Origin: Thauera humireducens
GTDB lineage: Bacteria > Pseudomonadota > Gammaproteobacteria > Burkholderiales > Rhodocyclaceae
Length of the DNA stretch: 64,000 nucleotides
Direction: 5' to 3'
NCBI RefSeq assembly: GCF_001051995.2
Contig: NZ_CP014646.1
Location: 496,001-560,000, forward strand
The position numbers were made by a program, and so were the translations under genes. Positions 44,968 to 62,601 of the stretch are shown here, in pieces. Under the pieces are notes generated by a model. It had not been told where the DNA came from and searched no databases. It saw only the letters and a list, made by a program, of their open reading frames with translations. The number at the start of each line of letters is the position of its first letter. Within the stretch, counting starts at the first letter, position 1.

Positions 44968-46311
44968 TCAGATGAGGGCTTGCACGAGGCCGATGGAAGC
45001 GCACGCAGCGATTACGCTCATGACGTCCTGCTTGTACTTCCACAGTGCGATGAAGGCTCCCAGCGAAATCAAGGCGTAGAACCATTCGAAGCCACCTGAG
45101 AATGGTGCAGCCTCGGTCGCGTGCGGGAAGATCACGTGCCAGCCGAAGAACAATGCAAGGTTGAGTATCACCCCGACCACGGCGGCCGTGATGCCGGTGA
45201 GCGGTGCGGTGAATTTCAGGTCGCCGTGGGTGGACTCCACCAGCGGCGCCCCTGCGAGAATGAATACGAAGCTCGGCAGGAAGGTGAAGAAAGTGGCCAC
45301 CGATGCGCCGACGAAGCCCGCCAGCAACAGGGCATCGGGACCGAAGATTTCCTTGGTCCAGGCACCCACGAAGCCGACGAAGGCGACCACCATGATCAGC
45401 GGCCCGGGCGTGGTCTCGCCCAGGGCCAGACCATCGATCATCTGTGTGCCGGTGAGCCAGCCGTAGGTGTCGACGCCGCCCTGATAGACGTAGGGCAGCA
45501 CGGCATAGGCACCGCCGAAGGTGACGAGCGCGGCCTTGGTGAAGAACTCGCCCATGGTACGCAGCACCGGTTCGTCGAGCACGGCCATCGCCGCGCCCCA
45601 GAGGATCGCCGCCGCAACAATCAGTGTGACGAGGTAGGTCCAGCTGAAGCGCGTATGGGGCAGGGGTGGAGTGTTGTCATCGATCAGGGCGGGGCCGTAG
45701 TCCTTGTCGGCGCCAGCATGTCCGCCGCCGACCCTGAACTTGTCCGGCGCCAGTTTGCCGCCGAGCGCGCCGAGCAGGCCGGCGCCGACGACGATGTAGG
45801 GAAAGGGTATGCCGAAGATGAAGATGGCCACGAAGGACACCGCCGCGAGCGCCCACAGCAGCCGGTTCTTCAAGGCCCGCGAGCCGATGCGCCAGGCGGC
45901 GAACACCACAATCGCCACCACCGCAGGCTTGATGCCATTGAAGATGCCCTGCACGAGAGTCAGGTCGCCGAAGGCCAGGTAGATGTAGGTCAGCGCTGCC
46001 AGGATGAACAGCGATGGCAGCACGAACAGCGTGCCGGCGACGATGCCGCCCCAGGTCCGATGCAGCAGCCAGCCGATGTAGATGGCAAGCTGCTGCGCCT
46101 CGGGCCCGGGCAGCACCATGCAGTAATTGAGCGCATGCAGAAAGCGCCGCTCCGAGATCCAGCGCCGATTCTCGACCAGCTCCTGATGCATGATCGCGAT
46201 CTGCCCGGCAGGGCCGCCGAAGCTGATGAAGCCGAGCTTCAGCCAGAACAGGAAGGCTTCGCGGAAGGAGGGCTGGGCGGGGTGCTGAGTCAGCGGTGGG
46301 CTGGCATTCAT
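44968..46311 (-). CDS. chrA: ChrA-family chromate transporter
   Basis: A 447-residue bidomain CHR protein. The N-terminal half has SFGGPAGQIAIMHQELVENRRWI and PGPEAQQLAIYIGW; the C-terminal half has TFGGAYAVLPYVYQ and LGETTPGPLIMVVAFVGF. Both are CHR signatures. ChrA exports chromate, a sulfate analogue. Here it ends an operon of sulfur-type genes (66 bp after the permease), with no chrB regulator, so a role in oxyanion balance during sulfur starvation, such as sulfate or sulfite movement, is possible. Confidence 0.9.
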   Translation of the reverse strand: MNASPPLTQHPAQPSFREAFLFWLKLGFISFGGPAGQIAIMHQELVENRRWISERRFLHALNYCMVLPGPEAQQLAIYIGWLLHRTWGGIVAGTLFVLPSLFILAALTYIYLAFGDLTLVQGIFNGIKPAVVAIVVFAAWRIGSRALKNRLLWALAAVSFVAIFIFGIPFPYIVVGAGLLGALGGKLAPDKFRVGGGHAGADKDYGPALIDDNTPPLPHTRFSWTYLVTLIVAAAILWGAAMAVLDEPVLRTMGEFFTKAALVTFGGAYAVLPYVYQGGVDTYGWLTGTQMIDGLALGETTPGPLIMVVAFVGFVGAWTKEIFGPDALLLAGFVGASVATFFTFLPSFVFILAGAPLVESTHGDLKFTAPLTGITAAVVGVILNLALFFGWHVIFPHATEAAPFSGGFEWFYALISLGAFIALWKYKQDVMSVIAACASIGLVQALI

Positions 46312-51064: not shown

Positions 51065-51907
51065 TTACAGCCTGAACAGCCGCGCTGCGTTGCCATACAG
51101 CGCCTTGTCGAGCGCCGAAGCGTTCAGTCCCAGCGCCAGAAAATCGTCGATCGACTGGCGGATCGGGCGGAAGGGGTAGGACGAGCCGAACAGGAGCTGG
51201 TCGGCCATGAAGCCGTTTGCCGCCTCGACATAGCCCTTGCTGCCAGCGACGAACAGGTACATGTCGGGCACGAGGTGGATGTTCTCGTAGCGAAAAGCGA
51301 GACCAATGGCCTGCGCCATGTTCGGCCACCAGCCGTGGTAACAGACGATGGGCAGTTGCGGAAACGCGCGTGCCACGTTGGCCAGCGGCGCCGGATCGTT
51401 GAAGCGCGGGTCGGGCGTGGTCGGGCCGGTCATCAGGAACACCGGCACGCCCAGCTGTGCGCACACCTCGTAGATGGGAAAGTAGGCTGGGTCGTCGACA
51501 TGGCGCGCCGGGCTGCCGAAGCCCGGCTCGATGTCGATGCCCGCCAGCCCGAGTTCGCGGATCGCGCGTTCGGCTTCATCCACCGCGGCACGGCCCTGGA
51601 TCACCGGATCGACGCCGGCGATGCCGAGCAGCTCGTCGTGGCCGTGCGTGATGCGGTGGATCAGCTCGATCGGCAGGTGCTGGGCGGGCGTGTGGCGGCC
51701 GACGACGACCGCCTTGGTCAGACCGGCCTCGCGTACTTCGGCGAGGAAGCCGTCCTGCGTGTGCGAGCGGGTGAAGTGTTCATCACTGCCGCGGGTGCCC
51801 ACGCGCCGGTTGAGCCAGCGCGCGGTCTCGTACTCGGGCGTGCCGGGCGTGGCGCCGAAGAAGTCGTGCAGGAAGGCCGGGCGGCAGCGCAGGTCGATGA
51901 CTTTCAT
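51065..51907 (-). CDS. Amidohydrolase-2 family protein (COG2159)
   Basis: A 280-residue TIM-barrel hydrolase/decarboxylase of the amidohydrolase-2 group. It shows [33 protein letters not shown], a conserved H in [14 protein letters not shown], and a C-terminal D/N region [10 protein letters not shown]. The N-terminal H-x-H metal motif common in the family is not clear. Its ATG overlaps the stop of the monooxygenase gene (ATGA), so it is made together with an SsuD/MsuD-type enzyme and probably processes its product or a precursor. This is not part of classical ssu or msu operons. Confidence 0.82.
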
Positions 51908-53046
51908 GCGGCCTCCTTGATCGGGGTCTTGACCGTGCTGGCGTCGAAGGGCCCGCCGGTGATGACCTGGTCCTGAGTCGTGACCGGCGCCTTGCCCGGC
52001 AGCAGCGGGAACACCAGCTCGGCGAAGCGCCAGGCTTCCTCAAGGTGCGGATAGCCGGAGAGCACGAAGCTGTCCACACCGAGGTCCGCATACTCCTTCA
52101 GGCGTGCGGCTACCGTTTGCGGATCGCCCACCAGCGCGGTGCCGGCACCGCCGCGCACCAGGCCGACGCCCGCCCACAGGTTGGGACTGACTTCCAGCCT
52201 GTCGCGCCGGCCGCCGTGCAGCGCAGCCATGCGGCGCTGGCCTTCGGAATCCATCGAGGCGAAGCGTGCCTGCACCTTGGCGATGGTCTCGTCGTCCAGC
52301 CGGCTGATCAGCCGGTCGGCCTCGGCCCAGGCTTCCTCGTTCGTCTCGCGCACGATCACGTGCAGGCGCACGCCGAAGCGCACCTTGCGCCCGCGTTCGG
52401 CGGCGCGCGCACGCACGTCGGCGATCTTCTCGGCCACTGCCGCGGGCGGTTCGCCCCAGGTCAGGTAGGCGTCGACCTGCTCGGCCGCGAGATCGTGTGC
52501 GGCGTTTGACGAGCCGCCGAAGTAGAGCGGCGGATGGGGCCTCTGCACTGCCGGGAACAGCAGTTGCGCGCCTTCCACTGTGTGATGCTCGCCAGCGTAG
52601 TCGACCGTTTCGCCCTGCAACAGGCGGCGCCAGATGGTCAGGAACTCGCTCGCCTCGTCATAACGCGCATCGTGGTCGAGGAAGATGCCGTCGCCGGCCA
52701 GTTCGGCCGAGTCGCCGCCTGCGACCACGTTCAGCAGCAGCCGGCCGCGGGTGGCCTGGTCGAGCGTGGCCGCCATGCGCGCCGCCGCCGTCGGCTTGGT
52801 CAGCGCGGTGCGCAGCGCGACCAGCAGCTTCAGCTTGCGCGTCACCGGGGCCACGCTGCCCGCGACGACCCAGGGGTCGAGGCAGCCGCTGCCGGTCGGG
52901 ATCAGGATGCCGTCGTAGCCAAGGTTGTCGGCAGTCACCGCGATCTGCTGCATGTATTCGATGGTGACCGGGCGACCGGAGTTGGATTTGCCGAGATAGC
53001 GGGTGTCACCCGAGGTGGGCAGGAACCAGAAGATGTCGAGACTCAT
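51904..53046 (-). CDS. FMNH2-dependent sulfonate monooxygenase, SsuD/MsuD type (copy 2)
   Basis: A 380-residue luciferase-like enzyme beginning [17 protein letters not shown], with [15 protein letters not shown] and [14 protein letters not shown]. It is closely related to the ssuD copy at 38438 but clearly distinct. It lies 15 bp after an FMN reductase gene, so electron supply is provided in the operon. It could be the methanesulfonate (MsuD) or an alkanesulfonate enzyme. The C-terminal tail ([12 protein letters not shown]) differs from copy 1. Confidence 0.9.
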
Positions 53047-53061: not shown

Positions 53062-53646
53062 TCAGGCGGCAGCACGCACGAAGCTCGGCTGGCTGGAGCC
53101 GATGCTCGCGCGTTTGCGCAGGAAGGGGCGCGCACGCTCGGCGGCAAGATCGATGCGTGCCTGCAGCGCCGGGCTGGTGATCTGGTAATCCTGGATCTCA
53201 GCCTCGCTGCCATACACGCCGATCGGCAGGGTGTGGGCCTGGAAGAAGCTGAACAGCGGGCGGAACTGGTGTTCGAGCACCAACGCATGGCGGTCGCTGC
53301 CGCCGGTGGCAGCGAGCAACACGGGGACATCGATCAGCGCGTTCTGGTCGACGAAGTCGAACAGGTGCTTGAACAGGCCGGTGAAGGACGCCCGATACAC
53401 CGGGCTGGCCACCACTAGGAAGTCCGCCGATTCGATCGCGGCGATATCGGCCTTGACGTCGTCCGGCAGTTGCGACGGATAGAGCGCGCCCGCCAGCTTG
53501 GGGCCTATGGCGCCGAGTTCGATCAGGCGCACATCGATCGGCGCCTGATCGCCCAGGGCGTCGATCAGGGCTTCGACCACGGTCAGGGTGCGGGAGGGGC
53601 GCTGCAGCCCACCGGAAACGGCGACAACCTTGATTTGCTTGCTCAT
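53062..53646 (-). CDS. NAD(P)H-dependent FMN reductase (SsuE/MsuE type)
   Basis: A 194-residue flavodoxin-like reductase with VVAVSGGLQRPSRTLTVVEAL (phosphate loop), VVASPVYRASFTGLFKHLFD and the signature LLAATGGSDRHALVLEHQFRPLFSFF. It supplies FMNH2 to the monooxygenase encoded next and possibly to the ssuD copy at 38438. A GAAGGTG box precedes the ATG at 53646. It is the first gene of a three-gene operon with a sigma-54 promoter at 53704-53719. Confidence 0.92.
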   Translation of the reverse strand: MSKQIKVVAVSGGLQRPSRTLTVVEALIDALGDQAPIDVRLIELGAIGPKLAGALYPSQLPDDVKADIAAIESADFLVVASPVYRASFTGLFKHLFDFVDQNALIDVPVLLAATGGSDRHALVLEHQFRPLFSFFQAHTLPIGVYGSEAEIQDYQITSPALQARIDLAAERARPFLRKRASIGSSQPSFVRAAA

Positions 53647-53703: not shown

Positions 53704-53719
53704 AGCACGAGCTGTGCCA
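53704..53719 (-). promoter_or_regulatory. Sigma-54 promoter of the FMN reductase operon
   Basis: The minus strand reads TGGCAC-AGCTC-GTGCT: perfect -24 and a -12 keeping the essential GC with exact 10-bp GG-to-GC spacing. The predicted start near 53692 gives a leader of about 46 nt. An A/T-rich stretch and a dyad pair lie upstream. Confidence 0.75.
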
Positions 53720-53769
53720 GATAAAAGAAATAATGAAAACAGTAGCTTGGGTGTTTCATGGGTGGGATT

Positions 53770-53819
53770 CTGCTGCCTGCGCAGCAGTTCCGGCCAGCCG
53801 GCTGGTGATCAGGCAACAG
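53770..53819. repeat. Tandem activator-type dyads upstream of the FMN reductase operon
   Basis: Dyad 1 CTGCTG-CCTGCG-CAGCAG (53770-53787) is perfect. Dyad 2 CTGGTG-ATCAGG-CAACAG (53802-53819) has one change per arm. Their centres are 32 bp apart, and dyad 1 begins 51 bp upstream of the -24 box. The same layout occurs at the two other sigma-54 promoters of the window. Confidence 0.7.
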
Positions 53820-53833
53820 CCGGCTGGCCGGAA
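53788..53833 (-). terminator. Long hairpin at the end of ssuABC copy 2
   Basis: Perfect 17-bp arms TTCCGGCCAGCCGGCTG (53788-53804) and its reverse complement (53817-53833) with a 12-nt loop, starting 5 bp after the ssuB stop in the minus direction. There is no T-run. The loop overlaps dyad 2 of the next operon's control region. Confidence 0.65.
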
Positions 53834-53837
53834 TCCA

Positions 53838-54656
53838 TCACACCGCGAACGACAGCGACGCGAAGTCGACGGGTTCGAGCGGGCGCGGCCTGGCCGCCAG
53901 TTCCCCGGTCAGATCCAGGTAGTCGAGTTGCTCGCCATGCAGCAAGGTGAGCGCCCGTGCCTGTGCGTGGCTCAGTTCCACGGCGGCCCGATCGCGGGGC
54001 CGGGGCAGTCCGACCTCGATCTCGCCGGCGATGCGTCCCGGGTTGGCCGACATCACGAAAATCCGATCGCTCAGGTACGCCGCTTCGTCGATATCGTGCG
54101 TCACCAGCAGCAGCGTCGTACCGTGGCGTTCGGCCAGCGAAAGCAGCAGGTCCTGCAGGCGCATGCGGGTGAAGGCATCGACCGCGCTGAACGGTTCGTC
54201 GAGCAGGAGCAGGGCGGGCTGGGCGAACAGCCCGCGTGCAATCGCCGCACGTTGCGCCATGCCGCCGGACAACTGCTTCGGATAGGCGTCGGCGAAATCC
54301 GCCAGGCCGACCTCGGCGAGCAGTTCTCTGACTCGCGGATGGCCGCCGCCGCCTCGCCCGGCCTCGAAGCCGACGTTGTCGGCTACGGTCAGCCAAGGCA
54401 GCAGGCGCGGCTCCTGGAAGATGAAGCCGACGTCGGGCGAATGCAGGTGCGGCGCGGCGCCCTTGATGCGGACGGTGCCGCGGTAGTCTTCATCCAGCCC
54501 GGCGACGATGCGCAGCAGCGTGCTCTTGCCGCAGCCGCTGGGGCCGAGCAGGCTGACGATCTCGCCGGGCCGGATGTCGAAGCGGACGCCGTCGATCACC
54601 GAGCGCGACTGGAAGCGCTTGTCGCTGACGTTCAGCGCAAGAAGGGGTTCGGACAT
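53838..54656 (-). CDS. ssuB: Sulfonate-type ABC transporter, ATP-binding protein (copy 2)
   Basis: A 272-residue ATPase with Walker A LLGPSGCGKST, Q-loop FQEPRLLPWL, signature LSGGMAQRAAIARGL, Walker B LLLLDEPFSAVD and VTHDIDEA. It belongs to the SsuB/TauB group. It is the last gene of the ssuA-ssuC-ssuB unit (12-bp spacing), is followed at once by a 17-bp hairpin, and provides energy for organosulfur uptake. No monooxygenase is in this unit. Confidence 0.9.
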   Translation of the reverse strand: MSEPLLALNVSDKRFQSRSVIDGVRFDIRPGEIVSLLGPSGCGKSTLLRIVAGLDEDYRGTVRIKGAAPHLHSPDVGFIFQEPRLLPWLTVADNVGFEAGRGGGGHPRVRELLAEVGLADFADAYPKQLSGGMAQRAAIARGLFAQPALLLLDEPFSAVDAFTRMRLQDLLLSLAERHGTTLLLVTHDIDEAAYLSDRIFVMSANPGRIAGEIEVGLPRPRDRAAVELSHAQARALTLLHGEQLDYLDLTGELAARPRPLEPVDFASLSFAV

Positions 54657-54668
54657 TGTCGTGCCTCC

Positions 54669-55514
54669 TCAGGAACGCTTACCGTCATAAACGTCACGCC
54701 ACGCCAGCAGCCGGCGTTCGGCGAGCTGCAGCACGCTGTCGCTGAGCTTGCCCAGCAGTGCAAGCACGATGATCGCCACGATCACCAGGTCGGCACGCGC
54801 CATCTCCCTGCCGTCGGTCAGCAGGTAGCCCAGGCCGCGCGTCGCGGCGATCAGTTCGGCCGCGACCAGGAACATCCAGGCCAGCGACAGCCCGGTGCGC
54901 AGGCCGGTGAGCAGATTGGGCAGCGCGGCCGGCAGGAAGATGCGCACGATCAGCCGCCAGCCCTTCACGCCAAAGATGCCGCCGACCTCCACCAGCTTGC
55001 GGTCCACGTTCTGGATGCCGGCGACCAGATTCAGATACACCGGAAAGAAGGCGCCGATGGCGATCAGCGTGATCTTCGGCGCCTCGTCGATGCCCAGCCA
55101 AAGCAGCAGCAGCGGTACCCAGGCCAGCGAGGGGATGGCGCGCAGCGCCTGGAAACTCGGGTCGAGGTAGGCCTCGAGCTCGCGCGACAGGCCCACCGCG
55201 GCGCCGACGACCAGCGCCAGCACGGCGCCGATGGCAAAGCCGGCCAGCACGCGCAGGCCGCTCACCCCGATGTGGCCCAGCAGTTCGCCGCTGGACGCAA
55301 GATCGGACAAGGTGACGACCAGCTCGGACGGGGGCGGCAGCAGGTGGGCGCTGGCCCAGCCCAGTCGCACCGCGGCTTCCCAGATCACTACCAGCCCAAG
55401 CGGCACGACCCAGCCCTTGAACTGCGCGGCGAGCCGCCGCCCCTGTCGGGGGCGGTGCGCCGTATCCAGGGGCGTGGCGGGCAGCGGCGCGTCCAGTGTC
55501 GAAGCCTTGCTCAT
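54669..55514 (-). CDS. ssuC: Sulfonate-type ABC transporter, permease (copy 2)
   Basis: A 281-residue permease with about six helices and loop EVGGIFGVKGWRLIVRIFLPAALPNLLTGLRTGLSLAW, typical of SsuC/TauC. A hydrophilic N-terminal extension of about 35 residues precedes TM1. It is spaced 10 bp from ssuA and 12 bp from ssuB. It forms the inner-membrane channel. Confidence 0.9.
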   Translation of the reverse strand: MSKASTLDAPLPATPLDTAHRPRQGRRLAAQFKGWVVPLGLVVIWEAAVRLGWASAHLLPPPSELVVTLSDLASSGELLGHIGVSGLRVLAGFAIGAVLALVVGAAVGLSRELEAYLDPSFQALRAIPSLAWVPLLLLWLGIDEAPKITLIAIGAFFPVYLNLVAGIQNVDRKLVEVGGIFGVKGWRLIVRIFLPAALPNLLTGLRTGLSLAWMFLVAAELIAATRGLGYLLTDGREMARADLVIVAIIVLALLGKLSDSVLQLAERRLLAWRDVYDGKRS

Positions 55515-55524
55515 GATGGGACGC

Positions 55525-56496
55525 TCACTTCACCACGGCGCGTGCATGCGCCGGTTCGACCAGGGCGTCGATCACGGCCGCCACGTCGGTGCCCTTGCGC
55601 ACCAGGTCCTCCTCGACCAGGATCGGGGCGGCTGCCTTCAGGGCCTCCACATGCTGTGCCCCCGGCACCGGCGTGCTGAAGTCGTTGCGCGACAGCTGCA
55701 GCCTGGCCACTTCGAGCGGCAGCTTGGCCTCCTCGGCAACAAGGCGGGCGGTGTCGTCCGGGTTGGCGAGGATCCACTGGCGCGCCTTTTCATAGGCGGC
55801 GATGACCCGCTGCACGTAGTCCGGATGCTGGGTCGCGAAGCGCTCGGTGGTGTTGAGGAAACCATAGGTGTTGAAGGCGACGTTGCGGTACAGCAGGCGC
55901 GAACCCGCTTGCACCTCGCTGCCGGCCATCAGTGGATCGAGCCCGGACCACGCGTCGACGCGTCCCTGCTCCAGTGCGGCCCGCCCGTCGGCATGCTGCA
56001 GCGCGAGGATCTCGACGTCGGTCTTGGACAGCCCCTCCTGCTGCAGGCTGCGCAGCAGGAACAGGAAGGGGTCGGTGCCCTTGGTCGCGGCCACCTTCTT
56101 GCCCTTGAGGTCTTTCACCGACTCGATCGGCGAATCCTTGGGCACGACCAGGGCCGTCCATTCGGGGCGCGAATACACATATACGCTCTTGATCGGGTTG
56201 CCGTTGGCCTTCGATAGCACGGCGGCCAGGCCGGCGGTGGAGCCGAAATCGACGCTGCCGCTGTTGAGGAATTCGAGCGCGCGGTTGCTGCCCTGGCTCA
56301 GCACCCACTTCACCGGCACGCCGTCGGCCTTCAGGTCTTCCTCCAGCCAGCCGAACTTCTTCAGCACCAGGCTGGGCGGGGAGTAGTAGGCATAGTCGAG
56401 GCGGACCTCGGCAGGCTTGTCGGCGGCGTGGGTGAGGCCGGTGGCGAGCAGCACGCCGGCAGCGGCGAGGGTGAGGCGTTTGAGGGTCTTGAACAT
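55525..56496 (-). CDS. ssuA: Sulfonate-type periplasmic binding protein (copy 2)
   Basis: A 323-residue SsuA-like protein with a Sec signal peptide cut after THA (about 24), then VRLDYAYYSPPSLVLKKFGWLEEDL and SGSVDFGSTAGLAAVLSKANG. Copy 1 (39640) uses a Tat leader instead, and the two differ strongly in the ligand cleft region, so the ligands probably differ. First gene of the unit. A sigma-54 promoter lies about 40 bp upstream. Confidence 0.9.
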   Translation of the reverse strand: MFKTLKRLTLAAAGVLLATGLTHAADKPAEVRLDYAYYSPPSLVLKKFGWLEEDLKADGVPVKWVLSQGSNRALEFLNSGSVDFGSTAGLAAVLSKANGNPIKSVYVYSRPEWTALVVPKDSPIESVKDLKGKKVAATKGTDPFLFLLRSLQQEGLSKTDVEILALQHADGRAALEQGRVDAWSGLDPLMAGSEVQAGSRLLYRNVAFNTYGFLNTTERFATQHPDYVQRVIAAYEKARQWILANPDDTARLVAEEAKLPLEVARLQLSRNDFSTPVPGAQHVEALKAAAPILVEEDLVRKGTDVAAVIDALVEPAHARAVVK

Positions 56497-56536
56497 GATG
56501 AATCCCGATGGGGTTGTTGAATCAGGGATTCACTAA

Positions 56537-56552
56537 CGCAGTGATCGTGCCA
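56537..56552 (-). promoter_or_regulatory. Sigma-54 promoter of ssuABC copy 2
   Basis: The minus strand reads TGGCAC-GATCA-CTGCG: perfect -24 and a -12 with the conserved TGC at exact spacing. The predicted start near 56526 gives a leader of about 30 nt. The A/T-rich linker 56554-56580 lies between it and the upstream dyads. Confidence 0.72.
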
Positions 56553-56605
56553 GAAATAATAGTTGTTTTATTTCAATTGCTTGAGTTGATTGTGGAGGGC
56601 GAGTT

Positions 56606-56653
56606 CTGCTGGATTTGCAGCAGACGGGCGCAGCGCTGCTGCGAATCCAGCAG
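56606..56653. repeat. Tandem activator-type dyads upstream of ssuABC copy 2
   Basis: Dyad 1 CTGCTG-GATTTG-CAGCAG (56606-56623) and dyad 2 CTGCTG-CGAATC-CAGCAG (56636-56653) both have perfect 6-bp arms. Their centres are 30 bp apart (about three helical turns), and dyad 1 begins 54 bp upstream of the -24 box. This is the best copy of the shared element. Confidence 0.75.
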
Positions 56654-56738
56654 ACCGCCTGCAGACGTTTTGAGCCCGCCGACAACGCAAACGGGGCCGC
56701 ATTGCTGCGACCCCGCTCGTTCGTCGGTTTCCCGTTGA

Positions 56739-57395
56739 TCAGATGCGCTTGTTCAACTTTAGAGCCAGTTTGTCCCCGCCAAACTGGATGACCGTCACCA
56801 GCACCACCAGCAGCACGATCACGGTCAGCATCACATCGGTATCGAAGCGCTGATAGCCATAGCGGTAGGCCAGGTCGCCCAGTCCCCCGGCACCGATCGC
56901 ACCTGCGACCGCAGAGGCGTTGATCATGCTGACCACCGTGATCGTGAAGCCGGCGACGATGCCCGGCCGCGCCTCGGGCAGCAATACATGCCAGATGATG
57001 TGCCAGCGCTTGCAACCCATTGCCTGCGCCGCTTCGACCAGGCCGCGATCGACCTCGCGCAAGCTGACTTCGGCGATGCGGGCGAAGAAGGGGACTGCAG
57101 CCGCGCTGAGCGGGACGATCGCGGCCCACACGCCGTAGCTGGTGCCGACGATCAGGCGGGTGATGGGAATCAGGGCCACCATCAGGATCAGGAACGGAAT
57201 CGAGCGGATGACGTTCACCACGCTGCCCAGCACGTTGTTGGCCCAGCGCGCCTCGAAGATGCCATCGCGCGAGGTGGCGACCAGGATCAGCGCCAGCGGG
57301 ATGCCGAGCAGCAGGGTGATCACCGACGACACGCCGATCATCACGAAGGTGTCCCAGGTGCCTTCTATCAGGCGGTCAATGAGCAGGGGCGACAT
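56739..57395 (-). CDS. metI: Methionine ABC transporter, permease
   Basis: A 218-residue permease with five to six helices and the MetI loop EVDRGLVEAAQAMGCKRWHIIWHVLLPEARPGIVAG. MetI proteins are about 217 residues, so it is full length. Its ATG overlaps the preceding metQ stop by 1 nt (TGATG). It imports methionine or a related sulfur compound with MetN and the two MetQ-like proteins. Last gene of the operon. Confidence 0.93.
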   Translation of the reverse strand: MSPLLIDRLIEGTWDTFVMIGVSSVITLLLGIPLALILVATSRDGIFEARWANNVLGSVVNVIRSIPFLILMVALIPITRLIVGTSYGVWAAIVPLSAAAVPFFARIAEVSLREVDRGLVEAAQAMGCKRWHIIWHVLLPEARPGIVAGFTITVVSMINASAVAGAIGAGGLGDLAYRYGYQRFDTDVMLTVIVLLVVLVTVIQFGGDKLALKLNKRI

Positions 57396-58219
57396 CAGTT
57401 CTTTTCCCAGAGCCGGAAGTAGAGGTCACCGAATCGTTTATCGAGTTCGGCACGGACGGCGGGCGAGTTCTGGTAGATGGCGACGAACTGCGCGACCCGG
57501 GGATCGTCCTTGCTCTTGGGATGGGCGACGAAGTGGATGCCGTACTTGCGGCTTTCGGACTCCGACTCCCAGTGCAGCGCAGATTTCGGGTCGATGACGC
57601 CCGAGGCGAGCAGGAAGTGGGTGAAACCGTGGGCCAGATCGACTTCATTGACGGCCAGCGGCAACTGGTGGAAATCGATCTCCAGCAATTTCAGCTGCCT
57701 GGGGTTGTCGATGATGTCGTTCAGGGTCGCTCTTGGACCGGCTCCGGGCTTGAGCTTCAGCAGCCCGGCGTCCTGGAGCAGATGCAAGCCGCGGGCGAAG
57801 TTCACCGGGTCGCCGGCGAGTGCAACGCGGGCGCCGTTGGGCAGGTCCTGAAGGCGCTGGTATCTCTTGGAGTAGAGGCCGGTCTTGTTGACGATACCGA
57901 TCGCGACCGGCTCGAGATTCAAGCCCCGTTCTTTCTTCACGACATCCAGGAACAGGCTGTGCTGGAAGTAGTTGAGGTCGATTTCGCCGTTGGCGAGGGT
58001 CACGTTCGGCGACACCGGATCGGTGAACTCGATCAGTTTGACGTCGAGCCCCTGCTTCTTCGCTTCCGCGACCGCCACTTCGAGTGGTGCAGCAAACCCC
58101 GCATTGGTCCCTACCTTCAGCGGGCCGGAGGCGGCCGTGGCGGGGCTGGCGATCGCACTCAGCAGGCCGGCGAGCAGGAGTGTTCTTGCCAGTTTTCGAA
58201 TGGACTGTAAGGCTTTCAT
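57395..58219 (-). CDS. metQ: MetQ-like substrate-binding protein (second copy)
   Basis: A 274-residue NlpA/MetQ-family protein with a signal peptide cut after ATA (about 29). The mature part has LKVGTNAGFAAPLEVAVAEAKKQGLDVKLIEFTD and LNYFQHSLFLDVV. MetQ is usually a lipoprotein, but no lipobox cysteine is present here, so it is probably free in the periplasm. It lies between metN and metI. A second binding protein in one operon suggests that one transporter serves two ligands. Confidence 0.9.
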   Translation of the reverse strand: MKALQSIRKLARTLLLAGLLSAIASPATAASGPLKVGTNAGFAAPLEVAVAEAKKQGLDVKLIEFTDPVSPNVTLANGEIDLNYFQHSLFLDVVKKERGLNLEPVAIGIVNKTGLYSKRYQRLQDLPNGARVALAGDPVNFARGLHLLQDAGLLKLKPGAGPRATLNDIIDNPRQLKLLEIDFHQLPLAVNEVDLAHGFTHFLLASGVIDPKSALHWESESESRKYGIHFVAHPKSKDDPRVAQFVAIYQNSPAVRAELDKRFGDLYFRLWEKN

Positions 58220-58245
58220 GTGTCTGTTTCCTTCGAGTTGTGTGC

Positions 58246-59322
58246 TTAAACGAGGCTGACGTAGCCCACGTGATGGATCTTGTCGGCGAGGCCCTGCGCC
58301 CGCCGGATGATGTCCGCCGCCGGCTCGCTGGAGTCCACGCTCACCAGCAGATGCCCTTGCGCGCGGTTCTGGATGCGGTCGATGCCGCCATGCACCAGCC
58401 GCGTGCCCGCGCCCAGTACGTTGGCGATCGACAGCAGATCGGGGTCGCGGCGGCTGACACCGGTGAAGTGCAGGTCGAGCAGCAAGGCTTGCGCTTCGGT
58501 CGTGCGTTCGGGGTGGATGTGGCCGTTCAGGTCGTCGGGCAGGTCGTGATGCACGGTGCCGAGCAGGGTGCGAGTGACTTCATGCTGAGGGTCGCCGAAC
58601 ACCTGCCACACCGGCCCATGCTCCACCACGCGGCCGCGCTCCAGCACCACCACGCGGTGGCAGATCTCGTGGATCACTTCCATCTCGTGCGTGATCAGCA
58701 CGACGGTCAGTCCCAGGCGCCGGTTGATGTCCTTCAGCAGGGCGAGGATGGCCTGGGTGCTTTCCGGGTCGAGCGCCGACGTGGCCTCGTCGCACAGCAG
58801 GATCTCGGGCTGGTGCACCAGGGCGCGGGCGATGCCGACACGCTGCTTCTGCCCGCCGGACAACTGTGCCGGGTACATGTCGCGCTTTTCCGACAGGCCG
58901 ACCAGTTGCAGCGATTCGGCCACGCGACGTTCGATCTCGGCCGGCTTGATACCCGCCACCTTCAGCGGCAGGGCGACGTTCTGCCACACCGTCTTCGCCG
59001 ACATCAGGTTGAAGTGCTGGAAGATCATGCCGACCCGTCGGCGCAGCGCCACGAGCTGGGCTTCATCCAGGCTGCCGATGTCCCGCCCGTCGATCAGCAC
59101 CTTGCCGCTGCTCGGATCTTCCAGCCGGTTCAGGGTGCGGATCAGCGAGGACTTGCCCGCGCCGCTGCGGCCGATGATGCCAAAGATCTCGCCGCGCTGG
59201 ATGTCGAGGTCGATGTCTTCCAGCGCGGTGACGGCGCCGCGGCCGGTGTCGTACGTCTTGCCGATTCCTTCCAGCCGGATGTGGGCAATCGACTGTTCGA
59301 TGTGCGTTGCAAGCCGGTCCAT
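58246..59322 (-). CDS. metN: Methionine ABC transporter, ATP-binding protein
   Basis: A 358-residue ATPase with Walker [16 protein letters not shown]-loop [12 protein letters not shown], signature [15 protein letters not shown], Walker [17 protein letters not shown] and the MetN-type [10 protein letters not shown]. The last 90 residues form the C-terminal NIL regulatory domain that binds methionine and inhibits transport in MetNI. It sits 2 bp after the first metQ. Together with metI it forms the importer. Confidence 0.94.
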
Positions 59323-59324
59323 GA

Positions 59325-60158
59325 TCAGTGCTCCCAGGCCGCGGTGTAGAACTGGCCGGAGTGCTGGTCGAGTGCGGCGCGCACGGCGGGTGAGGTGTGA
59401 TAGACCTTGACGAACTTCTTCAGGCGCTCGTCATCCTTGCCCTCGGGACGGGTGACGAAATGCACCGCGTAAACCTTCTGGCCCTGGCCGTCGAAAATCA
59501 GTGCCTTTGCCGGGTCGATCGTGCCTGCGAGCTTGAGGTAATGCGGCATGCCCTGAGCGAGGTCGACGTCATCCAGCGCGCGTGCCAGCTGCACCGCCTC
59601 GAGCTCGATGATCCTGAGCTTATTCGGGTTGTCGACGATATCGGCCTGCGTCGTCTTATAGCCGGTGCCCGGCCTGAGCTTGATCAGCCCGGCTTTCTCC
59701 AGCAGCTGAAGGCCGCGCGCGCCATTGACCGCGTCGCCGGCGATCGCCACCTTGGCGCCGACCGGGATGTCGGACAGCGCCCTGTGCTTCTTCGAGTACA
59801 GACCGACGTTGTTGATGATGCCGATGGCGGCCGGCACCAGATTGAAGCCGCCTTCCTTGTTCGCGTTCTCGAGGAAGGGAATGTGCTGGAAGTAGTTGGC
59901 GTCGATGTCGCCTTTCGCCACCGTGAGATTGGGCGTGTTCCAGTCGGTGAATTCGACCAGCTCGACCTTCACGCCCTGTGCAGCAGCCTCCTGCACGGCG
60001 ACCTCCAGCGCCGGCACGAAGGCAGCGGTCGTGCCGAGCTTGAGCGGCTTGTCGGCGGCAGCCTGGGCCAGACCCATCGTCGAGCTGGCAACCGCGGCGA
60101 TGGCGAAGGTTTTGAGCCACTTGGCGGCAGCGTGGCGGATCGGGTTGTTCGTGCTCAT
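59325..60158 (-). CDS. metQ: MetQ-like substrate-binding protein (first copy)
   Basis: A 277-residue NlpA/MetQ-family protein. The signal peptide ends at AQA (about 34), and the mature part has [34 protein letters not shown] and [14 protein letters not shown]. Like the second copy it lacks a lipobox cysteine. The two share only moderate similarity, so ligands may differ, for example methionine and a sulfoxide. It heads the operon metQ-metN-metQ-metI, driven by the sigma-54 promoter 64 bp upstream. Confidence 0.92.
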
Positions 60159-60221
60159 GTTTCACTCCTGAAGGGGTTTGGAATAAGGCTGACTGCTTGT
60201 GAATCAGGCTGGAAGGAGATG

Positions 60222-60237
60222 AGCAAGAGCGGTGCCA
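60222..60237 (-). promoter_or_regulatory. Sigma-54 promoter of metQ-metN-metQ-metI
   Basis: The minus strand reads TGGCAC-CGCTC-TTGCT, a full match to the sigma-54 consensus in both boxes and spacing. The predicted start near 60211 gives a leader of about 53 nt. It is the strongest of the three sigma-54 promoters. Confidence 0.82.
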
Positions 60238-60289
60238 GAGAACTAAAGGTTTATGAAACAAGGGTTTGTGGTTTTACTGCGAGGACGCG

Positions 60290-60338
60290 CTGTTGAATTT
60301 GCAGCGCCGCTGCAGGCGGAGTGCGCCGCCTTCAGCAA
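60290..60338. repeat. Tandem activator-type dyads upstream of the met operon
   Basis: Dyad 1 CTGTTG-AATTTG-CAGCGC (60290-60307) matches the best copy at 56606 in 14 of 18 positions. Dyad 2 GTGCGC-CGCCTT-CAGCAA (60321-60338) keeps only the CAGCA half. Centre spacing (31 bp) and distance to the -24 box (53 bp) match the other two promoters. Confidence 0.5.
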
Positions 60339-60504: not shown

Positions 60505-62601
60505 ATGACTCGAGAAGACCGTAACCCCGACCCCCTGATTGACGTTCCGCGCGACGGTCGCGTGCTGGGTGCCTGCCCGCACGACTGTCCGGACACCTGT
60601 TCGCTCCTGACCACGGTTCGCGATGGCGTTGCCATCAAGGTGCAGGGCAATCCCGGCCATCCGCAGACGGCCGGCGTGCTGTGCACAAAGGTGTCGCGCT
60701 ACACGGAGCGGACCTATCACCCCGAGCGCGTGCTCGCGCCGCTCAGGCGTGTCGGCCCCAAGGGCGCAGGGCGCTTCGAGCCGGTCAGCTGGGATGAGGC
60801 GCTCGATGACATTGCCGGGCGCTTGAAGGCGATTGCTGTGCGCGACCCGCAGGCCATCGTGCCCTACAGCTACGCGGGCACGATGGGGCTGGTGCAGGGC
60901 GAGAGCATGGCGGCGCGCTTCTTCCATCGTCTCGGTGCGTCGCTGCTCGACCGTACGTTGTGCGCATCGGCCGGCGCGATGGCGCTGGAAGCCACGCTGG
61001 GAACCAGGCAGGGCACGCGGGTGGAACACTTCGCCGATGCGCGCCTGATCCTGATCTGGGGGAGCAACCCGATCAACAGCAACCTCCATTTCTGGCGTTA
61101 CGCCCTCGAAGCCAAGCGCAAGGGCGCGAAGCTGGTCTGCATCGACCCGCGGCGCTCGGAAACCGCGGAAAAATGTCATGCGCACCTCGCACTGCTGCCC
61201 GGCAGCGATGCGGCCCTGGCCTATGCCCTGATGCACGAGCTGATCCGCAACGACTGGCTGGATCACGACTACCTGGCGCGCCACACGCTGGGGTGGGCGG
61301 AACTGCGCGAACGCGCGCTGCAATGGCCGCCGTCGCGTGCGGCCGAGATCTGCGGCCTGACCGAAGCGGAGATCGTCGCATTGGCCGCCGACATCGGCGC
61401 CAGCTTCCAGCGCCGGGAGCCTGTCGCCATCCGTCTCAACTACGGCATGCAGCGTGTGCGCGGCGGCGGCAACGCGGTGCGGGCGATCGCCTGCATTCCG
61501 GCCTTGATCGGCGCCTGGCGGCATCGTTCCGGGGGGCTGCTGCTGAGCAGTTCGGGCGCCTTCCCGGTCCAGCGTGCGGTCCTTGAGCGGCCGGACCTGC
61601 TGCGACGTTCGGGCGTGGCGCATCCGCGCACGCTCAACATGAGCACGATCGGCAACGACCTGCTGCGTCCCGCGTCCGAGGCCTTCGGTCCGCGCATCGA
61701 GGCGCTCGTGGTCTACAACAGCAATCCGGTGGCGGTGGCGCCGGAGTCGGGCAAGGTGGTGGCCGGGTTTGCGCGCGAGGACCTGTTCACCGTGGTTCTG
61801 GAGCATTTCCGCACCGACACGGCGGATTACGCGGACTATGTGCTGCCCGCGACGACCCAGCTCGAGCACTGGGACATTCATTCGAGCTATGGCCATACCG
61901 ATGTGTTGCTCAACCGCCCGGCGATCCCGCCGCTGGGTGCGGCCAAGCCCAACTCGCAGATCTTTCGCGAGCTGGCGCGACGCCTCGGTTTCGACGAGCC
62001 GTGTTTTGCCGACGACGATCTGGCCTTGTGCCAGCAGGCCTTCGACGAGCGTGTCGACTTCGAGCGACTGCTGGTGGAGGGCCATGTTTCCCTGGCCGTG
62101 CCGGAGACGCCCTTTGCCGAGGGGCAATTCCCGACCCCGTCGGGCAAGTGCGAGTTCTTCAGTGCGCGGCTTGCTGCGGCCGGACATGACGGTTTGCCGG
62201 CCGTGCTGCCGAACTACGAGGCGCTGGGCTCGGACGAGCGCTACCCCCTGGCGATGATCTCGCCGCCGCCGCGCAACTTCCTCAACTCCACCTTCGTCAA
62301 TGTCGATAGCCTGCGCGACGGCGAAGGGGGGCCGAATCTGGAGATCCATCCCGACGACGCCGCGCCGCGGCAGATCGCCGACGGCGCGCGCGTGCGCGTC
62401 TTCAACGACCGCGGCAGCTATCACTGCATCGCCCGGGTCGGCCTGCGCGCTCGGCCTGGAGTGGTCAATGGGCTGGGCGTGTGGTGGCGAAAGCTCAGTC
62501 TGAGCGGCACCAACGCCAACGAGCTCACCAGCCAGAAGCTGACGGACCTCGGCGCGGCACCGGTGTTCTACGACTGTCTGGTCGAGGTCGAACCGGCCTG
62601 A
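60505..62601 (+). CDS. Molybdopterin-dependent oxidoreductase with [4Fe-4S] cluster
   Basis: A 698-residue enzyme of the DMSO-reductase superfamily. The N-terminal cluster site is C24-x3-C28-x3-C32 ... C60. The bis-MGD domains follow (DARLILIWGSNPINSNLHFWRYALEAKRKG; C-terminal SPPPRNFLNSTFVN and GDGARVRVFNDRG-type MGD loop). C153 in DRTLCASAGAMAL is placed where the Mo ligand may lie. No Tat signal is present, so it is cytoplasmic and soluble, and no partner subunit genes adjoin. Its position opposite the metQNQI operon suggests reduction of a sulfoxide or oxidation of a sulfur compound. The substrate is unknown. Confidence 0.85.
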   Translation: MTREDRNPDPLIDVPRDGRVLGACPHDCPDTCSLLTTVRDGVAIKVQGNPGHPQTAGVLCTKVSRYTERTYHPERVLAPLRRVGPKGAGRFEPVSWDEALDDIAGRLKAIAVRDPQAIVPYSYAGTMGLVQGESMAARFFHRLGASLLDRTLCASAGAMALEATLGTRQGTRVEHFADARLILIWGSNPINSNLHFWRYALEAKRKGAKLVCIDPRRSETAEKCHAHLALLPGSDAALAYALMHELIRNDWLDHDYLARHTLGWAELRERALQWPPSRAAEICGLTEAEIVALAADIGASFQRREPVAIRLNYGMQRVRGGGNAVRAIACIPALIGAWRHRSGGLLLSSSGAFPVQRAVLERPDLLRRSGVAHPRTLNMSTIGNDLLRPASEAFGPRIEALVVYNSNPVAVAPESGKVVAGFAREDLFTVVLEHFRTDTADYADYVLPATTQLEHWDIHSSYGHTDVLLNRPAIPPLGAAKPNSQIFRELARRLGFDEPCFADDDLALCQQAFDERVDFERLLVEGHVSLAVPETPFAEGQFPTPSGKCEFFSARLAAAGHDGLPAVLPNYEALGSDERYPLAMISPPPRNFLNSTFVNVDSLRDGEGGPNLEIHPDDAAPRQIADGARVRVFNDRGSYHCIARVGLRARPGVVNGLGVWWRKLSLSGTNANELTSQKLTDLGAAPVFYDCLVEVEPA

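Follow-up and report, generated by a model that had tools for sequence, protein, structure and literature searches.

What coordinates the transcription of the organosulfur operons that lie side by side on the chromosome of Thauera humireducens, and which protein reads the repeated sequence ahead of their promoters? Here, we address this for a stretch of 64,000 nucleotides (assembly GCF_001051995.2, contig NZ_CP014646.1, positions 496,001 to 560,000; hereafter the window, whose own numbering is used unless contig positions are given). Operons headed by msuE, ssuA and metQ each follow a sigma-54 promoter (P1, P2 and P3, respectively), upstream of which lie paired inverted repeats, or dyads, related to CTGYTG-N6-CARCAG. 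An initial annotation had placed the three operons in a local regulon under one sigma-54 activator, probably of the SfnR type known for sulfone use. Very probably, the dyads represent candidate enhancers of an SfnR-like sigma-54 activator that is encoded in the same gene cluster, 6.4 kb past the end of the window.

The three -24/-12 boxes have the form TGGCAC-N5-GTGC/CTGC/TTGC and are all on the minus strand, with the T of the -24 element (-24 T) at 53719, 56552 and 60237. They are TGGCACAGCTCGTGC at 53705-53719 ahead of the msuE operon, TGGCACGATCACTGC at 56538-56552 ahead of ssuA-C-B and TGGCACCGCTCTTGC at 60223-60237 ahead of the metQ operon. The TGGCAC-N5-xTGCx boxes previously noted for the operons starting at 53646, 56496 and 60158 were thus all found again, and they are the only matches to TGGCAC-N6-TGC in the whole window. 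GG and GC at fixed spacing ahead of genes, as expected of sigma-54 promoters, are present at each of them. The proximal dyad is separated from the -24 T by a gap of 50 (msuE), 53 (ssuA) or 52 (metQ) bases, and the distal position by 82, 83 and 83 bases. The centres of the two positions are 32, 30 and 31 bp apart, which agrees with the 30-32 bp given before. Exact CTGCTG-N6-CAGCAG dyads start at 53770, 56606 and 56636. The ssuA promoter indeed carries two perfect copies, CTGCTGGATTTGCAGCAG at 56606-56623 (gap 53) and CTGCTGCGAATCCAGCAG at 56636-56653 (gap 83). At msuE, the exact proximal operator CTGCTGCCTGCGCAGCAG (53770-53787) is followed by a distal operator with two mismatches, CTGGTGATCAGGCAACAG (53802-53819). 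The proximal operator of metQ, CTGTTGAATTTGCAGCGC (60290-60307), is degenerate with three mismatches, and its distal position (60321-60338) has one recognisable half site only (1.6 bits). The notion of the same tandem dyad at three promoters therefore holds for the geometry, which all three share, but not for the sequence quality of the dyads.

A search of the whole genome (4.17 Mb) gave 12 copies of the exact dyad, as compared with 4 in a backwards control, and three of the 12 are in the window cluster. The -24/-12 box shows no enrichment on its own (78 genome-wide, 83 in the control) and is useless as a genome-wide marker. For CTGYTG-N6-CARCAG with a box within 38-68 bp, msuE and ssuA were the sole matches in this genome, hence the other nine exact dyads are without a linked box. 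The genome scan for dyad-box pairs that the initial annotation had recommended thus singles out two of its three promoters, whereas metQ is recovered only with a looser pattern, the half-site CARCAG plus box. The latter matches 10 places (3 in the control), of which four are cluster promoters, i.e., the three in the window and a fourth at contig 562744, and six lie elsewhere. Eight of the 10 loci were scored with weight matrices, and the cluster promoters reached 13.3-42.0, the four others -22.4 to -2.0. Of the two matrices, one was trained without the own genome and the other also without the genus. The four msuE and ssuA dyads rank 1-4 and the metQ proximal dyad ranks 10th of 63,983 window positions with both matrices, although the training sites were chosen by likeness to the motif, so that neither matrix is independent of the motif idea. 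The P1 distal operator ranks fourth with both; the P1 proximal operator ranks first, and second with the genus-free matrix. In dinucleotide shuffles of the upstream regions, the msuE and ssuA scores were reached by 0 of 3000 shuffles each. For metQ, the proximal score was reached in 3, the distal score in 88 and the joint score in none of 3000 shuffles.

The initial annotation had inferred that the activator gene is outside the window, and it was found in the same cluster at contig 566439-567536 (70436-71536 on the scale of the window), about 6.4 kb past the window end. A PF00158 profile search of the genome for sigma-54 activator domains returned 18 matches, 14 of them strong; the match in this gene is at contig 566961-567446. 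The encoded protein has 366 amino acids and a sigma-54 interaction AAA+ domain with a GAFTGA loop, and the domain scan detected neither a receiver nor a PAS domain. Its C-terminus matches Fis helix-turn-helix structures and can be aligned with the helix-turn-helix of the Pseudomonas msu-operon activator; the Pfam HTH_8 match is just below the cut-off (19.7 vs 22 bits). Nearest named relatives are Thauera proteins. DszC/MsuC-like, SfnB-like and NtaA-like genes surround the activator gene, with family matches under the equivalog cut-offs except for NtaA/DmoA. In a tree of 59 proteins with midpoint root, this activator and Pseudomonas SfnR belong to one 46-row group (support 100/99) that stands apart from 13 other activators of the own genome. 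Within this group they are in different subclades with moderate support (91/93 and 80/88). The protein probably acts like SfnR and is a relative of Pseudomonas SfnR, placed short of an ortholog. The own genome has no match to SfnG at E <= 1e-60, hence sulfone use itself is not indicated. Co-occurrence and the Pseudomonas-like dyads described below speak for a regulon under one SfnR-type activator. Around the start of the activator gene and upstream of it, 500 bases were scanned and contain no dyad (best 1.5 bits), so that autoregulation via this operator is not indicated either.

Between the window and the activator gene lies the fourth sigma-54 promoter (P4), TGGCATGGATGCTGC at 66744-66758 on the window scale (L061:6744-6758), on the minus strand. 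Its -24 T is at window-scale 66758 (contig 562744), 6.5 kb past the metQ promoter, and it precedes an acyl-CoA-dehydrogenase/NtaA/SfnB-like operon. The two best operator positions within 200 bp have gaps of 83 and 52, and both are weak.

Presence of the activator gene coincides with presence of the tandem operator within the genus. The gene was found in 8 of 29 genus genomes, seven of which have tandem dyads with gaps of 49-53 and 80-83. From 16 of the 21 activator-free genomes, 20 loci were scored, none of them with such tandem dyads and with a best combined score of 4.5, as compared to 13.3-42.0 for the own promoters; the remaining five had zero CARCAG+box matches. The half-site pattern as such is uninformative at this level: it occurs in 24 of the 29 genomes at 67 places versus 49 in the control, hence most of these matches are due to chance, and it takes scoring of the full dyad to tell gene-bearing from activator-free genomes. 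This scoring covered 38 matched loci, of which 36 were scored (L214 and L215 yielded no score), and CARCAG+box matches without a locus were included only where the sequence was retrieved. Six further matches in gene-bearing relatives (L268, L271, L272, L274, L277, L284) scored between -21.0 and 9.8, the highest value belonging to a promoter of G696 that has one dyad only and is adjacent to the second activator gene of this genome. The ssuA gaps of 53/83 are kept in the relatives G250, G700, G702 and G704, and the msuE gaps of 49-50/80-81 in G103, G250, G700, G702 and G704, even though the operons are rearranged. G696 has tandem pairs at 51/81 and 52/82 near sulfur genes, and the metQ promoter of G103 has gaps of 52/83 as in the own genome, with weak sites. 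In G103 and G250, sfnG is part of the msuE operon, between msuE and the monooxygenase gene.

Beyond the genus, Zoogloea has tandem dyads (52/84) before msuC/ssuD-like genes. Two good dyads are also present in Ideonella (L069), where the gaps are 51 and 92, and the frame directly downstream of them gave no sulfur-gene match. A family-wide scan with the strict dyad-plus-box pattern matched 7 of 297 genomes at 9 places (1 in the control). An activator homolog is present in 38 of the 297 genomes, including six of these seven (hypergeometric 2e-5, with kinship ignored). At the level of the phylum, the strict pattern matched 4 of 397 genomes (the own genome, G354, G435 and G539) at 5 places versus 0 in the control. 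The matches in G539 (phylum) and G070 (family) seem to fall within coding sequence, going by the matched letters only. Among 74 stretches, some of them redundant and three (L198, L201, L203) included owing to their pattern match, dyads with at most one mismatch near 93 TGGYAY-N6-TGC boxes were located upstream in 50 cases and within 200 bp downstream in none. Gaps of 50-53 or 81-84, i.e., 8 of 183 positions, account for 22 of the 50 upstream dyads.

The link to SfnR comes from genomes of family f16, which we call Pseudomonas-like as inferred from the relatives of their activators. All 11 sfnG-bearing genomes examined in this family have an activator homolog that matches through the helix-turn-helix. 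Among eight genomes without sfnG, seven have partial or weaker matches only, and G358 has the homolog. A dyad is located upstream of sfnG in 8 of the 11, two of these eight starting with T, and a box was recognised at six of the eight loci, with gaps of 98-99 (four), 153 and 176. Upstream of the msuE-msuD-msuC-activator operon, a dyad with at most one mismatch is positioned 82-83 bases from a TGGTAC box at four of four loci. Overall, 8 of 12 Pseudomonas-like stretches have a dyad-box pair within 260 bp. Because the same dyad type marks the msuE and sfnG promoters of these genomes, CTGYTG-N6-CARCAG most likely serves activators of the SfnR type as their operator. In PMC8234197, the msu genes are placed together with sfnR, and titles cited there describe sfnFG of P. 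putida as SfnR-dependent with sigma-54 and its SfnR as being under CysB and induced by sulfate starvation. According to PMC12581299, sfnG, msuD and msuE are strongly induced when P. aeruginosa is starved of sulfur. The Pseudomonas loci L090-L112 and L116, initially candidates for SfnR, were rejected because they turned out to be different short activators, which lack the C-terminal helix-turn-helix wherever an alignment was made.

Several observations weigh against the dyads being sites of the SfnR-like activator. In the cluster itself, the P3 and P4 sites are weak, and the P1 distal copy is also the core of a strong hairpin. No dyad-box pair was found in 4 of the 12 Pseudomonas-like stretches (L305, L308, L314, L315), and most sites in such genomes consist of one dyad at a different distance. 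G699, the eighth gene-bearing genome of the genus (a fragment at a contig end), had no tandem in its one scored match. Of the 38 family genomes in which a homolog is present, 32 lack the strict dyad plus box. A qualifying promoter is likewise missing from 35 of 49 annotated stretches, and a looser scan of 30 loci, mostly from these misses, yielded pairs in two (L065, L205). Either the targets in these genomes are elsewhere, or other subclades use other sites. Given the misses in gene-bearing genomes and stretches, the tandem form is well supported only around Thauera/Zoogloea plus scattered others. The co-occurrence of gene and tandem operator in the genus, together with the same dyad type at Pseudomonas-like msuE and sfnG, nonetheless supports a local SfnR-type regulon.

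The same misses in the family, and the 14 strong PF00158 matches in the genome, would be compatible with dyads that bind another sigma-54 activator of T. humireducens, with the SfnR-like gene being merely a neighbour. This is unlikely, as presence of the SfnR-like gene tracks the tandem sites in the genus, in a survey of this gene only, and the same dyad type stands ahead of a Pseudomonas-like operon whose last gene encodes the homologous activator. Alternatively, the dyads could be sites of a LysR-type regulator (CysB/Cbl/SsuR type) or of another repressor, with adjacent sigma-54 promoters by functional coincidence. LysR-type control of ssu/tau genes is common and the inverted-repeat form by itself would fit, but the preference for distances of 50-53 and 81-84 bp from the -24 T, the phasing of 30-32 bp and the linkage to a sigma-54 activator gene make such sites very unlikely. 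A reading of the inverted repeats as terminators of transcription, or as GC-rich palindromes that arose at random, is scarcely credible: a perfect inverted repeat does have the P1 distal dyad at its core and 9 of the 12 exact dyads of the genome lie elsewhere, i.e., chance copies exist, but dyads are at the same positions in other genus members and no shuffle reached the P1 and P2 scores.

Our proposal of SfnR-type control is based on the sites with their spacing and their conservation in and near the genus, on an activator gene whose product has a sigma-54 domain and a helix-turn-helix, and on the co-occurrence of both. From these we infer that the activator binds the dyads, that two dimers stack there and that sulfur starvation is the signal. 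Briefly, two activator dimers might bind to the same side of the helix, about three turns (30-32 bp) from each other and some 60 and 90 bp above the -24 box, and nucleate an AAA+ ring on the two dyads. The ring could then reach sigma-54 polymerase by bending of the AT-rich spacer and contact it via the GAFTGA loop, thereby opening the msuE, ssuA and metQ promoters as well as the fourth promoter of the acyl-CoA-dehydrogenase/ntaA/sfnB-like operon. As the activator lacks a receiver domain, control would probably be exerted through its own abundance when sulfate is short, as reported for Pseudomonas SfnR under CysB.

The regulon extends a control system known from Pseudomonas and is not a new kind of system. 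As in P. putida DS1 and P. aeruginosa PAO1 (sfnFG, sfnA, msu genes), the activator is a receiver-less protein of about 366 amino acids whose gene is beside msuC-like genes. Targets likewise include msuE, msuD/ssuD, sfnB-like and ntaA-like genes, and the CTGYTG-N6-CARCAG-type dyad also stands above a -24/-12 box in the Pseudomonas-like genomes. In contrast to Pseudomonas, the Thauera dyads are tandem and promoter-proximal (gaps of about 50 and 82), sites also precede the ssuACB and metNIQ importers, the activator belongs to another subclade, and the genome has no SfnG match. Paired inverted-repeat enhancers at one -24/-12 promoter are also described for AauR in PMC7962211 (TTCGG-N4-CCGAA, two motifs above aatJ), although AauR is a two-component activator with another site and a role in glutamate uptake. 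A binding sequence of SfnR was not found in the open literature searched, a search that the key P. putida and P. aeruginosa SfnR papers were outside of.

It is tempting to propose, with about an even chance of being correct, that CTGYTG-N6-CARCAG is an ancestral operator common to several clades of SfnR-like activators in beta- and gammaproteobacteria, while dyad number, distance and gene set evolve. The arrangement would then be tandem at about 50/82 in Thauera/Zoogloea and single at 82-83 or 98-176 in Pseudomonas-like genomes, and candidate targets would include a TonB-dependent receptor in the latter and a methionine-type importer in Thauera. If this is true, one pattern predicts sulfur-starvation sigma-54 regulons across both classes. 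The analysis provides a concrete candidate operator for a group of receiver-less sigma-54 activators and names one candidate regulator for four operons of an organosulfur cluster. It further suggests that enhancer position can move while the operator sequence stays alike, and scans with the pattern could reveal genes for sulfur scavenging that have so far been overlooked, the TonB-receptor gene being an example. In G354 (L307:5703-5866) and G435 (L216), the operator, with a gap of 51, precedes a gene whose product has a TonB-receptor plug domain, which is a possible sulfur-uptake target in Pseudomonas-like genomes. In G354, a sigma-54-like box in divergent orientation is also present, and an SfnR-like gene lies about 9 kb from this site. 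In Zoogloea (L066, L068), two SfnR-like genes (78% and 55-58% similarity) are adjacent and convergent, which suggests a duplicated activator.

All genes of the three operons in the window are on the minus strand. The msuE operon comprises msuE for an FMN (flavin mononucleotide) reductase (53062-53646; TIGR03566 above cut-off), a gene for an ssuD/msuD-type FMNH2-dependent alkanesulfonate monooxygenase (51904-53046; TIGR03565 above cut-off) and, 3' of ssuD, an amidohydrolase gene (51065-51907; PF04909). The amidohydrolase gene is kept in the msuE operon of several relatives with 93-95% identity. A sulfonate-type ATP-binding cassette (ABC) importer is encoded at 53838-56496 by ssuA (55525-56496), ssuC (54669-55514) and ssuB (53838-54656), with SsuA_fam above its cut-off and SsuC and the ATPase as best matches below equivalog cut-offs. 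The methionine-family ABC importer at 56739-60158 consists of metQ (59325-60158), metN (58246-59322), metQ2 (57395-58219) and metI (56739-57395); MetI is above its cut-off, MetN and both MetQ are under theirs. The perfect inverted repeat with 17-bp arms at 53788-53833, centred on the P1 distal operator (fold of about -40 kcal/mol), is possibly the ssuB terminator; no T run was seen. On the other side of the P3 operator region, the plus strand encodes, divergently from metQ, a molybdopterin oxidoreductase (60505-62601) that belongs to the DMSO (dimethyl sulfoxide)-reductase superfamily and for which the sigma-54 box scan of the window found no box. Near the sulfur genes, the window also contains a gene for a chromate transporter (44968-46311), chromate being an analogue of sulfate.

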